From contig JAJUFP010000004.1 in the NCBI GenBank assembly GCA_029263715.1, forward strand, positions 1 to 64,000: a stretch of 64,000 nt of DNA, written 5' to 3'. This DNA comes from Nitrososphaera sp. (GTDB taxonomy: Archaea > Thermoproteota > Nitrososphaeria > Nitrososphaerales > Nitrososphaeraceae). Made by a program: the position numbers and the translations under genes. Shown here piece after piece: positions 8,619 through 51,161 of the stretch. Each line of letters begins with the position of its first letter. Position 1 is the stretch's first letter. The notes under the pieces were generated by a model, which saw nothing but the letters and a program-made list of their open reading frames with translations, was not told where the DNA came from and made no database searches.

Positions 8619-9461
8619 TCATAGTTTGTGCTCATGTCTATGTTCTGCAGTGTGGGTATGCGGGTGCGCGTGCACCAGCCCGGCATGGGAATGCATGTGG
8701 TACTTTCTTTTGAAAAACGCGTACAGGGCAGAGATGCCAAACGCCGCCGCGCCAAACAGGACGATGGTGGCTCCGGACGCCGAGTCGAGGTAAAAGCTGG
8801 CATACATGCCTGCAAACGCGGTTATCGAGCCTATCGTGGCAGAGGCGATGATCATTTTCTGGAAATTGTTTGTCAGCATCCTTGCCGATATTGCCGGGGC
8901 CACGATGGTGGCTGCAAGCAACGTAACGCCAATGGCCGACATCGACGCAATAACGACGGTGGCAAGAACAAGGGAGAACATCAGTTCGACCAGCTCGACT
9001 TTTACGCCGTACGTCTTGGCCGTCTCCTTGTCAAAGAGCGTGAACATCAGGCGTTTGTGGGCAAGGAGCACAAAGAGCACGGTTACCGCCGACGCCCCCA
9101 CGATCATCAGCAGATCCTGGTCTGTTATTCCAAGGATGTTGCCAAACAGCATGGCCTCAAAGTTCCTTGTAAAGCTGCGGGTGGTGCTTATCAAGAGCAC
9201 CCCCACTGCAAAGCCGGCCGTCGTCACCACGCCGATGGCAGCATCGGCCTTGATCTTGTTGCGCCGGCTTATCTCGTTGATGAGGAAGGCTGACAGAAAT
9301 CCCCACAGGGCAGCGCCGATGTACAGGTTGATGTTTATTATGTAGCTGACGACGGCCCCCCCAAAGACGGCGTGGGACATCCCATGGCCGATGTAGCTCA
9401 TGCCGCGCAGGATGATGTACACGCCCAGCGTGCCGCATATGCCGCCCACCATTATGGCCAC
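8619..9461 (-). CDS. Metal ABC transporter permease, ZnuB/TroC family, with His-rich tail
   Basis: An integral membrane permease of the ABC-3 family with about eight helices (GGICGTLGVYIILRGMSYIGHGMSHA is diagnostic). It should import Zn, Mn or a related divalent metal with the ATPase and binding protein upstream. The last 28 residues contain ten histidines, a likely cytoplasmic metal-binding tail. GTG 9461 is the first ordinary start, but the frame stays open to a CTG at 9512, immediately after the ATPase stop. The intervening residues (LDFLQPFQYEFFTRG) look like the family N-terminus, so translation may begin there. Confidence 0.93.
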   Translation of the reverse strand: MAIMVGGICGTLGVYIILRGMSYIGHGMSHAVFGGAVVSYIININLYIGAALWGFLSAFLINEISRRNKIKADAAIGVVTTAGFAVGVLLISTTRSFTRNFEAMLFGNILGITDQDLLMIVGASAVTVLFVLLAHKRLMFTLFDKETAKTYGVKVELVELMFSLVLATVVIASMSAIGVTLLAATIVAPAISARMLTNNFQKMIIASATIGSITAFAGMYASFYLDSASGATIVLFGAAAFGISALYAFFKRKYHMHSHAGLVHAHPHTHTAEHRHEHKL

Positions 9462-9512
9462 GACAATTCCGCGGGTAAAGAACTCGTACTGGAAGGGTTG
9501 CAGGAAGTCCAG

Positions 9513-10235
9513 TCAGCCGTCACCCCTGTCTATCAGGCCGTACGTCTCAAGGAGGTTTTCGTTGGTGAGGATCTCTTTTGGCACACCCTCCGATATTATG
9601 CGCTTGTTCATGCACACTATCCAAGGTAGGCGCTTTGCAACCCCGGAGATGTCATGGGTCGTGAGGATTATGGTGGCCCCAGACTGGTTCAGCTTTGCCA
9701 GCACGTCCAGTATGGTCTCCCGGGTGTTATAGTCCACGCCGGAAGTTGGCTCATCTAGCACCAGTATATCAGGAAGACGGATCATGGCCCTTGCAAGAAA
9801 AACGCGCTGCTGCTCCCCTCCGGAAAGCTCGCTTATCTGCCTTGCCATGTAGTCTTCGATGCCCAGGCTTTCAAGGGCAGACCTTATCTTTTCGCCGGCC
9901 ACCCTGCTTATCCAGGGACCAGCACCAGAGTTGTCCCAGATGCCCATGGACACCACCTCTTTGACGGTCACCGGAAAGGTCCAGTCCACGCTTTCTACCT
10001 GCGGCACGTACCCGATCTCCGGTCTTCTGCCAGTTGTGCCAAACTTGACAGAACCGTACCACGGCTTGTGCAGGCCGGCAATTATCTTTAGAAGCGTGGT
10101 CTTGCCAGACCCGCTTGGTCCAAGGATCCCCACAAACCCGCCCTTTGGGATCTGAAGGTTAATGCCCTCAACTGCAGGCTTGTGGTACGAATAGCCGAAG
10201 GTAACCTCGCTTAGCTCAAGGGCGTTATCGGCCAT
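9513..10235 (-). CDS. Metal ABC transporter ATP-binding protein, ZnuC/TroB family
   Basis: The ATPase subunit of the metal importer. It has Walker A GPSGSGKTT (39-47), signature LSGGEQQ (137-143) and Walker B ILVLDEPTSG (157-166), counted from ATG 10235. That start is chosen over an upstream one at 10271: it lies 4 nt past the binding-protein stop and begins next to the conserved LELSEVTFGY. About 240 residues is normal for the family. Confidence 0.94.
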   Translation of the reverse strand: MADNALELSEVTFGYSYHKPAVEGINLQIPKGGFVGILGPSGSGKTTLLKIIAGLHKPWYGSVKFGTTGRRPEIGYVPQVESVDWTFPVTVKEVVSMGIWDNSGAGPWISRVAGEKIRSALESLGIEDYMARQISELSGGEQQRVFLARAMIRLPDILVLDEPTSGVDYNTRETILDVLAKLNQSGATIILTTHDISGVAKRLPWIVCMNKRIISEGVPKEILTNENLLETYGLIDRGDG

Positions 10236-10239
10236 GATC

Positions 10240-11262
10240 TCAGGGGCCTCCGTAGGTGTTACCCGGCTCAATGCCTTTCAGTGCGTCCACGTTTCCGCCA
10301 AGCGCCGGTATCATTGCACGCATGTTGGAAAGCATCATTCCTACATAGGTATTTTCAGAAGAACCCGGCTCGCCGGGAAGGTCGTCGTCTCGCAGGGTTT
10401 CGACTATCTGCACGTTGGCCTCCCTTGCAATCTGGTCCACCACCTTGCTTGGGAAAACTTCAGAAGCAAATATCGCCGGGACCTTTTCTGCGCGTACCTG
10501 GTCTATGATCCTTGCCACTTCCTGCGGTGTGGGCTCTCCAAAGTCTGACGGCTGCACTGCTCCAACCACAGTCATTCCGTAACGTGGGGCAAAATAGGCC
10601 CATGAATCGTGGTAGGTGACAAGCTTTCTGCTTTCTTCGGGGATTGTCTGGACCGACTGCATTATCCCCTGATCCAGCTTTTGGAGAAGTGCCAGGTACC
10701 TGTCAGCGTTTGAGGAGTAGTAGCTGGCATTTTCCGGATCCATCTCTATCAACTTATCACGAACAAGCTGCGCATACTTCATGGCATGGGCCACGTTGAG
10801 CCACAGGTGTGGGTTTGGATCCCCTCCTTCTGGGAAGCTGAAGTCAAAAACCCACTGCTCCCTTGTCACGGTATTGTCTGCAAGCCGGAGCAGCTGCAGG
10901 TCCTGCCTGCCTGAAGATTCCACCACCCTTTCAAAATCCGTTTCAAGATGAAGCCCGTTTATTATGACGAGGTCTGCCTCACCTACAACTACTGCGTTTG
11001 AAGGCGTCAGTTCAAAGGTGTGGGAGTTGACTCCCTCCGGCACTATGCCGGTCAGCTGTATCCTGTCTCCACCGATATTTCTGACAATGTTTGTGATGGG
11101 GGCAATAGAGGTCACGACCTTGAGCCTGCTATCGGCAGGCGTAGCAGATACAGTGTCGCTGCCTGCAGCTGCGTACAGTGACACGCCGATGGCTATTCCA
11201 ACAATGATAGCTACTGCAGCAGATATTCCAACAATTTTTTTTCTGGATTGCGGGTTGGACAT
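10240..11262 (-). CDS. Metal ABC transporter substrate-binding protein, ZnuA/TroA family
   Basis: An extracytoplasmic metal-binding lipoprotein-like subunit (340 residues) anchored by an N-terminal membrane segment, about residues 10-31. Candidate metal ligands are spread as in the cluster A-I family: His in SHTFELTPS, His in NPHLWLN, His in TYHDSWAYFAPRYG and an acidic residue in ETLRDDDLPG. Three His with one acidic ligand is usual for Zn binders. It is the first gene of the operon. A NikR-like operator lies in its leader (11290-11317). Confidence 0.93.
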   Translation of the reverse strand: MSNPQSRKKIVGISAAVAIIVGIAIGVSLYAAAGSDTVSATPADSRLKVVTSIAPITNIVRNIGGDRIQLTGIVPEGVNSHTFELTPSNAVVVGEADLVIINGLHLETDFERVVESSGRQDLQLLRLADNTVTREQWVFDFSFPEGGDPNPHLWLNVAHAMKYAQLVRDKLIEMDPENASYYSSNADRYLALLQKLDQGIMQSVQTIPEESRKLVTYHDSWAYFAPRYGMTVVGAVQPSDFGEPTPQEVARIIDQVRAEKVPAIFASEVFPSKVVDQIAREANVQIVETLRDDDLPGEPGSSENTYVGMMLSNMRAMIPALGGNVDALKGIEPGNTYGGP

Positions 11263-11690
11263 TTTATTGTTTCAGCCTCCTTTATCACAGTATTACGACT
11301 TTGTGATCCAGTAATACTGCAGCTATACAATGCAATTGTAAAAGTGCTATAAAAAGTTGCCAAACTTTTATGCAGACCGACCTATGATCCGCAGATAGGC
11401 GTTGACAAGAATTTCCGCCGACATCGGCTAAATAGCTGAAGGTATAAGATATTCATAAAGATATAGAGACTAGCGTCTGCATCTTTATGGCTGGAAGAAG
11501 AGACCTTACCAAGAAGTGTTTGAAAAATACGTTATTTGATCACAGTAACACTTTTCTTCTAAAACTTATTACTCGCCATTCCATTTTTTACTGTACCGGA
11601 AGATAATTCCTAGATGCGATGGAGCGATTCACCACAGATGAAGTAGTCAGGCTGGTGTTTGACAGGATCAGATGCCACAACATCATGCAT
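11263..11690. other. Regulatory intergenic region of the metal transporter
   Basis: It contains the operator at 11290-11317 and a TATA-like box for the binding protein (complement of about 11349-11358). A second inverted repeat, ATCACA (11284-11289) with TGTGAT (11302-11307), interleaves with the operator. The part from about 11400 to 11600 shows nothing recognisable. A 41-codon plus-strand ORF beginning at about 11620 (MERFTTDEVV) runs antisense into the end of the NikR gene and is not convincing. Confidence 0.4.
11290..11317. promoter_or_regulatory. NikR-like operator GTATTA-N16-TAATAC
   Basis: A perfect inverted repeat (full arms CAGTATTAC at 11288-11296 and GTAATACTG at 11311-11319) has half-sites GTATTA and TAATAC separated by exactly 16 nt. 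The E. coli NikR operator is GTATGA-N16-TCATAC, the same geometry. It sits downstream of the TATA box of the metal-binding protein gene, and a NikR-family regulator is encoded next to it. Confidence 0.65.
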
Positions 11691-12143
11691 TTAGACTATC
11701 TTGACAAAATGAACTTTCAGGCTCTTTATCCCGCGGTTTTCTGAAAGGCTCTTGGTGAGCGCTTTTATTCTCTTGATGTCGCCTCGCACCATGATCGTCT
11801 CAAGACAGTTGTTATGGTCCAGATGGAGATGGGTTGTAGCGCTTATTATGTCGCTAAAATTGTGCTGAACGTGTGTGGCAGAATCATCATGGCTGTAGGC
11901 ATGGTTGTCGTACAGCATCATTATTGCGCCGGCGCCCTTTTTGCTGTCCTGGCCCTGGTCCCAGTCGTACTGATCGATGAAGGAGTGCAGCGCCGTCTGG
12001 ATGGCCTTGGACCGGTCAGAGAACCCTGCCTTTTTCATGGACTGGTCAAACTCCGAGAGCAGTTCGGGTGGAAGTGACATGCTGATGCGCATCGCTGCTT
12101 CACGCTTTTCATGCTTGTGCCGGCGGCGATGGCTTTTTGCCAA
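11691..12143 (-). CDS. nikR: NikR-family nickel/metal-responsive regulator
   Basis: A ribbon-helix-helix DNA-binding domain (about 15-60, MRISMSLPPELLSEFDQSMKKAGF) joined to a C-terminal ACT-like metal-binding domain (about 70-150). The metal site signature is visible as H in ATHVQHNF, H-x-H in THLHLDH and C in NNCLETIMV, matching NikR. The N-terminus has an extra basic, His-rich stretch (SHRRRHKHEKRE). The start is TTG 12143. It lies on the same strand upstream of the metal ABC operon, which carries a NikR-geometry operator. The metal could be Ni or another divalent ion. Confidence 0.9.
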   Translation of the reverse strand: MAKSHRRRHKHEKREAAMRISMSLPPELLSEFDQSMKKAGFSDRSKAIQTALHSFIDQYDWDQGQDSKKGAGAIMMLYDNHAYSHDDSATHVQHNFSDIISATTHLHLDHNNCLETIMVRGDIKRIKALTKSLSENRGIKSLKVHFVKIV

Positions 12144-12144
12144 G

Positions 12145-12161
12145 TATCATAACAGATGATA
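12145..12161. promoter_or_regulatory. Palindrome at the nikR start
   Basis: TATCAT-AACAG-ATGATA is a 6-bp inverted repeat placed immediately before the TTG start of nikR, between it and a TATA-like TTTTAAGC (about 12170). Autoregulation is a possible role. Its spacing differs from that of the site at 11290. Confidence 0.35.
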
Positions 12162-12282
12162 TCCAGTCATTTTAAGCTTCTATGCTCGGCATGGCAGCTT
12201 GTTGCAGAGATTCAGGTGTGTAGGAAAACTTATAATCTAATGGTTATAATTTCCCATCATTTCCAGAAAAGAGTGATAAGTT

Positions 12283-13329
12283 TTGGTCAAAGTCTTCATC
12301 AACGGTTACGGAAACATAGGACGACGTCTTGCAACGGCGCTGTCTGTCGATAAGGAGATCCAGTTCGTCGGTGTGGCAAAGTACACCATCGACGAGAAGG
12401 TCAAGGAGGCACTGGACAACCACTACAACGTGTTTGTCCCGGAGGACATGGTGGGCCTGTGCAAGGAGAAAGGCTACGACGTTACCGGTACGGTCAAGGA
12501 CGCAGTAGGCAGGGCAGACCTGGTCGTAGATGCTGCCAAGGAAGGCGGCGGCTTTGAGAACAAGAAGAACCTGTACCTCCCCATGAACAAGCCGGCCATA
12601 TTCCAGGGAGGCGAGGACCGGCACGGCGAGTTTGCAGTAGCCGACATGATACACAACTCTCGGGTCAACTATGACAAGGCGGCAGGCAAGACCTACGTCA
12701 TCCAGGGCAGCTGCAACGTTTCTGGGATGGGCCGCATCATGCAGCCGCTCAAGGAGAAGTTTGGAGACAGAATACTGCGCTACGACGTTTCGCTTATCAG
12801 GAGATGGGCAGACCTTGAAGACACCAAGGCCGTCAAGGACTCTATAGAATGGGACAGAAACCCCCACCACCAGGACGATGTCAAGGACTTTATCCCCGAT
12901 GCCAACCTGTACGTAGACGCGTTCAAGGTGCCGTCTAGGATGATGCACCTGCACCACATGATGATCCGGTTCAAGGACAAGGCCCCCACCAGAGACGAGA
13001 TACTGGAATGCTATCGCAAAGAGTTTGGCGTTGCAATCCTCAAGTCGGCCAAGGGCACTGCAGACGTCCGCAAAAAAGCCATAGAACTAGGCTTCGTTCA
13101 CGGCGACACCAACATGGTGCACATCCACGAAGACATACTCCGCGTGCAAGACGACACGGTCAAGCTTGCCTACTCTGACGACCAGACAGGGATGGTGATT
13201 CCAGAGAACCACATGCTCATACAGTCCATGGTCTTCAAACGGCCGCGGGCTGAAGCTCTGGCCCGCACCGACAGCCTGTTCCAGATGAGCAAGAAGCGCA
13301 AGATCCTAGAAGAAGAGGCCTTCAAGTAG
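12283..13329 (+). CDS. gap: Type II glyceraldehyde-3-phosphate dehydrogenase (archaeal)
   Basis: It oxidises glyceraldehyde 3-phosphate to 1,3-bisphosphoglycerate, or the reverse in gluconeogenesis, as expected for an autotroph. The N-terminal Rossmann motif GYGNIGRR is at 8-15. The catalytic cysteine is C144 in QGSCNVSGMGR, where archaeal enzymes usually have SCNTT. At 348 residues the length fits. The start is TTG 12283 and no in-frame ATG precedes the conserved VFINGYG. Confidence 0.94.
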   Translation: MVKVFINGYGNIGRRLATALSVDKEIQFVGVAKYTIDEKVKEALDNHYNVFVPEDMVGLCKEKGYDVTGTVKDAVGRADLVVDAAKEGGGFENKKNLYLPMNKPAIFQGGEDRHGEFAVADMIHNSRVNYDKAAGKTYVIQGSCNVSGMGRIMQPLKEKFGDRILRYDVSLIRRWADLEDTKAVKDSIEWDRNPHHQDDVKDFIPDANLYVDAFKVPSRMMHLHHMMIRFKDKAPTRDEILECYRKEFGVAILKSAKGTADVRKKAIELGFVHGDTNMVHIHEDILRVQDDTVKLAYSDDQTGMVIPENHMLIQSMVFKRPRAEALARTDSLFQMSKKRKILEEEAFK

Positions 13330-51106: not shown

Positions 51107-51161
51107 GCATACTTTCTATCTCTATATCTGTATATATGTATTACCTATTATTAAGGAATGT

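Follow-up and report, generated by a model that had tools for sequence, protein, structure and literature searches.

A very probable NikR binding site before a zinc-type importer and a likely route for nickel into ammonia-oxidising archaea

A palindrome in the leader of an ABC-3 operon of Nitrososphaera sp. (assembly GCA_029263715.1) is very probably a NikR binding site before a zinc-type importer. It lies in a stretch of 64,000 nucleotides of contig JAJUFP010000004.1; this whole stretch is called the window in this work. The site has the spacing of a NikR operator, is conserved among relatives and is linked to NikR genes and to nickel/cobalt importers, and from the sequences compared it is in all likelihood the operator by which NikR1 controls an ABC-3 importer that carries nickel. 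Some soil ammonia-oxidising archaea thus seem to use a zinc-type importer for nickel. Urease, and hence growth on urea, requires nickel, and in the literature searched little has been published on nickel uptake by ammonia-oxidising archaea; the importer described here would be a likely nickel supply line for the urease of these organisms. If this holds true, a family usually annotated as zinc/manganese importer would serve as nickel importer in 4 of 18 genomes of the window's genus and in 13 of 15 Candidatus Nitrosocosmicus-type genomes, annotations could be corrected in a predictable manner and the NikR regulon of the class could be read from sequence.

The palindrome, the operon and the regulator

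The features of the locus are compiled in Table 1. That the palindrome is real, as put forward in the original prediction, can be maintained: its perfect 9-bp arms span 11288-11296 and 11311-11319, GTATTA-N16-TAATAC is matched exactly at a single place in the window (11290-11317) and not at all in 100 dinucleotide shuffles of the window, and none of 500 dinucleotide shuffles of the 200 nt before znuA1, the gene for the substrate-binding protein (SBP), matches the window site. Start codons for shuffle tests were picked by script or taken from the longest ORF. With N16 between the hexamers (N13/14 between heptamers) the inverted repeat is built like a NikR operator; its half-site reads GTATTA and not GTATGA as in E. 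coli, and half-sites vary among NikR groups according to the accessible part of an earlier study (PMC545781).

Table 1. Positions of the features discussed in the text; plain numbers refer to the window, L numbers to loci of relatives.
Feature	Position	Strand	Remarks
NikR operator (putative)	11288..11319	.	9-bp perfect arms; core GTATTAC-N14-GTAATAC at 11290-11317; kept in relatives
TATA-box-like TTTTTATA	11348..11355	-	30 nt upstream of operator on transcribed strand
Shine-Dalgarno-like AAGGAGG of SBP gene	11276..11282	-	read from sequence
Interleaved ATCACA (11284-11289)/TGTGAT (11302-11307)	11284..11307	.	judged incidental
znuA1	10240..11262	-	cluster A-I substrate-binding protein; ligands H81, H152, H218, D293; predicted nickel-binding; PF01297 250 bits
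znuC1	9513..10271	-	ABC ATPase; PF00005
znuB1	8619..9461	-	ABC-3 permease, His-rich C-terminus; PF00950 211 bits
nikR1	11691..12143	-	NikR; RHH N-terminus and NikR_C domain; HX10HXHX5C; PF08753, NF002169, PDB match 2bj1
NicO sites away from nikR1	L203:2432, L204:1530, L205:2116	.	second copy of G041; two in G016

Among the matches listed, best first, the window site is the only place without mismatch in the 1.92-Mb genome, and the next ones have two mismatches. At up to three mismatches the window genome yields 485 matches versus 994 for the reversed-pattern control, and looser matches therefore carry no meaning. In a whole-genome regulon search the counts at up to two mismatches exceeded this control in just 3 of 18 genomes. 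Since counts are so seldom above the control and those of the window genome fall below it at up to three mismatches, further targets in the window genome are not claimed. Another window site, with three mismatches, is located at 51160. In the 200 nt 5' of nikR1 in the window the site was not found, the best candidate having six mismatches.

The operator is situated within the leader of the minus-strand operon, and the znuA1 start codon lies 27 nt downstream of the palindrome; transcription would be expected to start near 11325. In relatives, gaps of 30, 30, 34 and 33 nt separate a TATA-like box from the site (G027, G026, G041 and G284, respectively). All 19 promoters scanned have the site upstream of the start codon; an exact TTTATA precedes the site by 3 to 34 nt in nine of them and by 48 nt in one, and was not found upstream of it in the remaining nine. 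The TATA spacing and the invariable position 5' of the start codon therefore fit repression by blocking polymerase or access to the start site. An interleaved ATCACA/TGTGAT repeat had originally been thought to offer alternative structures. The window does contain it, yet in all seven relatives checked the 100 nt preceding the gene lack both halves. Because the repeat is not conserved the idea of alternative structures is unsupported, and it was rejected as a functional element.

Genes for a PF01297 SBP, a PF00005 ATPase and a PF00950 permease adjoin on one strand and form an importer of the ABC-3 (Zn/Mn) type. The true start of znuB1 may be further upstream, as its orthologues in L149, L150 and L158 have longer N-termini. 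The gene nikR1 ends 428 bp upstream of the operon and points in the same direction. Pfam confirmed both parts of the claim that a NikR-family gene (11691-12143) stands beside an ABC-3 operon (8619-11262), both on the minus strand. NikR1 combines an N-terminal RHH domain with NikR_C, as NikR proteins do (89 bits for PF08753), and scores 127.6 with NF002169 (cut-off 111), while four other NCBIfam NikR models, TIGR02793 included, remain below cut-off. Its best PDB match is 2bj1, the phmmer span of residues 18-143 covering the RHH part. All 20 NikR1 rows, including that of the window, exhibit the ligand pattern HX10HXHX5C, which is absent from all 14 rows of a second paralogue, NikR2; we take these ligands to correspond to H76, H87, H89 and C95 of E. 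coli NikR.

Distribution of site and regulator among relatives

The proposal of a NikR-type operator that serves an ABC-3 importer and has a NikR gene nearby is strengthened by the orthologous promoters of relatives, in which the site is present and tracks NikR. In the family set of 70 genomes, that of the window included, znuA1 orthologues (identity ≥59%) occur in 28 and NikR1 (identity ≥54%) in 25 genomes; presence of znuA1, NikR1 and NicO is a lower bound in fragmented genomes. In seven cases nikR1 resides within about 3 kb of znuA1 (G000, G027, G042, G004, G058, G059 and G063), and an N14 site is found in all seven, with no mismatch in three, one in two and two in two. The search for the site before metal genes of relatives that had been suggested at the outset came out in favour of the claim: it is present at 13 of 13 znuA1 orthologues with NikR nearby (seven from the family, six from outside) and, at up to two mismatches, at none of 16 znuA1 upstream regions from NikR1-less genomes, from which two more regions (L010 and L016) were left out as too short.

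Sixteen importer promoters of NikR1 family genomes, namely 8 of znuA1 (of 10 such genomes) and 8 of nicO (of 14), were compared with respect to spacing. Thirteen contain an N14 palindrome for which 0 of 500 shuffles were as good, and the best mismatches summed over all 16 amount to 28 at N14 and to 60-83 at all other spacings from 4 to 26. Whole-genome scans of 13 NikR1 genomes returned their best match at a znuA1 or NicO promoter in eight cases; in the other five (G059, G004, G025, G063 and G065) it was not at an importer, which counts against our reading. In the three g12 genomes with both genes nikR1 is on a separate contig, and only weak distal sites are present, for which 2, 1 and 13 of 500 shuffles were as good. 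In G042 a second exact N14 site was noticed some 500 bp away from that of znuA1 (L071:6527-6554), and a possible 71-aa membrane ORF lies near it (L071:6575-6790). A NikR protein search of named contigs gave five loci, one of which belongs to this lineage; the remaining four, which include two from Helicobacter, were left out.

As a held-out test, 350 genomes of the class Nitrososphaeria were searched with znuA1 only, and six hits were obtained beyond the family. In each of these genomes nikR1 stands beside the operon, and one or more N14 sites are located upstream of znuA1, equalled by at most 1 of 500 shuffles; none of the six has a NicO match. Two N14 palindromes, 32-75 bp apart, are present in five of the six (L172, L174, L175, L176 and L177). 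NikR1 was detected in 43 of the 350 genomes, 21 of them outside the family, and the neighbourhoods of all 21 were inspected. Besides the six znuA1 genomes, seven have a site, which precedes a CbiM-type ECF transporter in four cases, NicO in two and nikR itself in one. For the remaining eight outside NikR genes (identity ≤41%) no site of up to two mismatches is contained in the stretch fetched, none before nikR, and BLAST against a small reference set together with inspection by eye did not recognise an importer beside them, one Pfam check being empty.

The cargo of the importer

Across genomes the operator precedes nickel transport genes (znuA1, nicO and cbiM promoters), as is to be expected of a NikR operator, with exceptions. 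It was found before 8 of 12 tested NicO genes that adjoin NikR and before all four CbiM-type genes in this position; a CbiM-type ECF case was seen in family f9. Fourteen NikR1 family genomes possess a NicO gene, and znuA1 was not found in them. Ten family NicO genes beside nikR1 were tested, G024 standing outside these counts as it could not be scored: six have a site that none of 500 shuffles equalled (G026, G041, G016, G043, G025 and G001), and four are without a significant site (G053, G044, G022 and G051), which counts against the assignment. Where NicO is not next to nikR1 (eight genes), three genes have a close upstream site with 1, 1 and 2 mismatches, judged by mismatch count; the other five have none and also count against it. 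The sites at NicO genes apart from nikR1 suggest a small regulon. The NicO protein of G041 scores above the cut-off of NCBIfam TIGR00802 (HoxN/HupN/NixA).

The two importers exclude each other. Of the 70 family genomes 28 have znuA1 and 30 have NicO (the latter count with G030 below the Pfam cut-off and G037 and G038 with stops inside the match), and the overlap is 0 (hypergeometric 2e-10, shared ancestry ignored). The same is true for the 37 genomes that are ≥90% complete and ≤5% contaminated, with 19 for znuA1, 15 for NicO and an overlap of 0 (9e-8, shared ancestry ignored). Exactly one of the two is encoded in 24 of the 25 NikR1 genomes, and the window genome gave no match for NicO. There are few clear cases in which the importer was swapped inside one genus, namely G026 and G041 in g1 and G016 in g5.

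A second link to nickel is provided by urease. In three genomes (G007, G008 and G019) of g5, a Candidatus Nitrosocosmicus-type genus, znuA1-C1-B1 is part of the urease cluster, directly after ureD and in the same orientation; UreC, UreD, UreF and UreG were verified in G007. In 12 of 13 g5 znuA1 genomes ureC is ≤8 kb away on the same contig, and in G011 the two are on separate contigs. The urease of the window genome is encoded on another contig than the importer. A thermosome (Cpn60/TCP1) subunit gene was observed after ureC inside the urease cluster in L149, L150, L151 and L158 and in the window genome (Pfam-checked in L149). In the accessible part of a marine study nikR is named in a figure on which genes urea-type and ammonia-type archaea possess (PMC12774514). 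The g12 genomes count against the urease link: none of the five (G065-G069) has a urease match, and the importer is nevertheless present in G065, G066, G067 and G069 and NikR1 in G065-G068. A [NiFe]-hydrogenase large subunit is encoded in the window genome (G000:C1:117755-118867, L163). Of 17 genomes tested for this family five gave a match, including that of the window and G069; since G069 is the one match within g12, the enzyme does not account for the importer in the other g12 genomes that have it. Lactate racemase, considered as a further nickel enzyme, was dropped with no match in the 17 genomes.

The Zn/Mn-type importer of the original prediction has been confirmed by Pfam as to its ABC-3 families, but its cargo is probably nickel rather than zinc or manganese in view of the exclusion with NicO, the linkage with urease and the operator on other nickel/cobalt importers. 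It is quite unlikely that NikR1 binds the site while the importer carries zinc or manganese, nickel excess then shutting a leaky importer for protection from toxicity. This possibility draws on the ABC-3 family itself and on the ligands of the SBP, which count against nickel: three His and one Asp are the set usual in zinc proteins, and they are retained in 34 of 34 aligned ZnuA1 sequences. In NCBIfam the SBP matches best to the models for AztC (zinc) and MntC (manganese), all of them sub-cut-off. The zinc importer cut-offs are missed by AztC (201/350 bits), AztA (184.8/220), AztB (176.3/280) and ZnuA (88.5/268), and no zinc or manganese NCBIfam model is over cut-off for the importer proteins (for the ATPase among the matches listed). 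Nor do the three proteins match the NicO and CbiM families in Pfam, so that by sequence this is not a known archaeal nickel importer. A znuA1 search did not find a second ABC-3 SBP in the window genome, which likewise counts against nickel, and ZIP gave one sub-cut-off match only. Zinc or manganese is contradicted by the lack of any overlap with NicO, the g5 urease clusters and the operator shared with other nickel/cobalt importers, and also by a second ABC-3 importer in relatives (G027 and G042), whose SBP has an acid/His-rich loop that the three ZnuA1 sequences inspected lack. Transport of cobalt for cobalamin, or of cobalt and nickel, appears unlikely: there are cobalt carriers in the NicO and CbiM families, as their names tell, and the importer is retained in the four g12 genomes without a urease match, but NikR senses nickel where studied, as stated in the accessible text of PMC7055735, and in the three Nitrosocosmicus-type genomes the importer follows ureD. 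We therefore adhere to nickel as the probable cargo.

The second ABC-3 importer is accompanied by NikR2, which has the ligand pattern HX8HXHX7C in all 14 rows and is divergent from the importer genes in loci L143, L144, L145, L146, L153, L156, L160 and L162 of relatives. Because NikR2 too adjoins ABC-3 importers, gene adjacency alone is no proof of nickel. An acid/His-rich loop, usual in zinc proteins, is present in the three SBP sequences of the second importer that were inspected and missing from the three inspected for ZnuA1. In the gap between NikR2 and ZnuABC2 the palindrome is another one, GTTATTAAC-N13-GTTAATAAC, which L144 and L146 have in exact form and L143, L153, L162 and L156 in shorter or shifted versions; L145 has unrelated repeats only, and none was called in L160. 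By these features NikR2 is a candidate zinc-sensing NikR. It is conceivable, though we would not yet call it probable, that the class Nitrososphaeria harbours one old NikR-operator module in which the importer has been exchanged (CbiM-type ECF, NicO or ABC-3, the last a new class of nickel importer), and that NikR2, with its shifted ligands and its own operator, is the zinc switch of a genuine zinc-type ABC-3 importer; one repressor family would then serve two metals and sister importers.

Proposed mode of action and comparison with known systems

In nickel-sufficient cells a nickel-loaded NikR1 tetramer would occupy the two half-sites, which are 21 bp apart from centre to centre, that is two helical turns, and, bound just downstream of the TATA box, would block initiation at znuA1-C1-B1. 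When nickel is scarce, NikR1 would be off the operator and the importer would be made, an ABC-3 (zinc/manganese) fold with nickel as cargo for urease and perhaps also for the [NiFe]-hydrogenase of the window organism. Binding, the metal and the direction of control at the window site are what we infer from the behaviour of the NikR family as given in the accessible part of the literature (PMC7055735).

Two other explanations concern the palindrome itself. An RNA hairpin in the leader, acting as attenuator or translational switch, is hardly credible even though that of the window folds more stably than shuffled sequences do (z -2.78). Over 31 sites the arms keep their sequence and spacing, and their seven arm pairs show one both-sides change and 19 broken pairs; the sites were picked by motif match, which inflates sequence conservation. 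With broken pairs outnumbering both-sides changes, the hairpin was rejected on conservation. Moreover, 11200-12300 contains no Rfam family at gathering score, and an exact TTTATA precedes the site by 6 nt in two of three CbiM promoters scanned and by 3 nt in G164 and G216; being just 3-6 nt after TTTATA, the site is probably located before the transcription start there. That the site belongs to another regulator with NikR1 as a bystander is very improbable. The binding of NikR1 to the site is a prediction, and its own gene is without a site in the window, but the presence of the site before every znuA1 with nikR1 nearby and before none of the NikR1-less ones tested argues for NikR1, as does a geometry equal to that of known NikR operators.

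In the accessible parts of a survey that included 47 archaea, three nickel/cobalt transporter families and a predicted cobalt carrier are described, none of them ABC-3, and the known archaeal nickel importer families are NiCoT, Nik/CbiMNQO and NikABCDE (PMC2667541). The genome paper on Ca. Nitrososphaera evergladensis mentions, in its accessible text, three putative nickel transporter genes. Among the matches listed, mostly outside subscription journals and accessible in part, neither NikR on an ABC-3 importer nor this operator in ammonia oxidisers is described. The geometry of the operator is already known from E. coli and delta-proteobacteria, whereas NikR on an ABC-3 importer is unreported in the accessible literature searched.

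The E. coli NikR/nikABCDE operator GTATGA-N16-TCATAC has the same regulator family, the same 28 bp and the same N16 between hexamers, and it too belongs to an ABC importer promoter with nikR close by, according to the accessible text of the sources (PMC7055735, PMC2667541). The half-site spacing of E. coli NikR that had been predicted for the window is therefore borne out. The differences are the half-site, GTATTA in the window, the archaeal promoter and the importer, which is ABC-3 and not of the peptide/nickel family. In the delta-proteobacterial consensus GTGTTAC-[N13/14]-GTAACAC before nik(MN)QO, as given in the accessible part of PMC545781, the spacing is the same and the half-site differs from that of the window by one letter; there, too, NikR gene context named an unknown nickel transporter, an ECF transporter in contrast to the ABC-3 importer of the window. 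ZnuABC, MntABC/PsaABC and AztABC share the SBP, ATPase and permease families and the ligand positions with the window importer, which is set apart by predicted NikR control, the missing overlap with NicO and the g5 urease linkage. NicO/NiCoT (HoxN/NixA) and CbiM-type ECF transporters, finally, belong to different Pfam families, have the predicted role and the operator in common with it and replace the ABC-3 importer beside NikR1.
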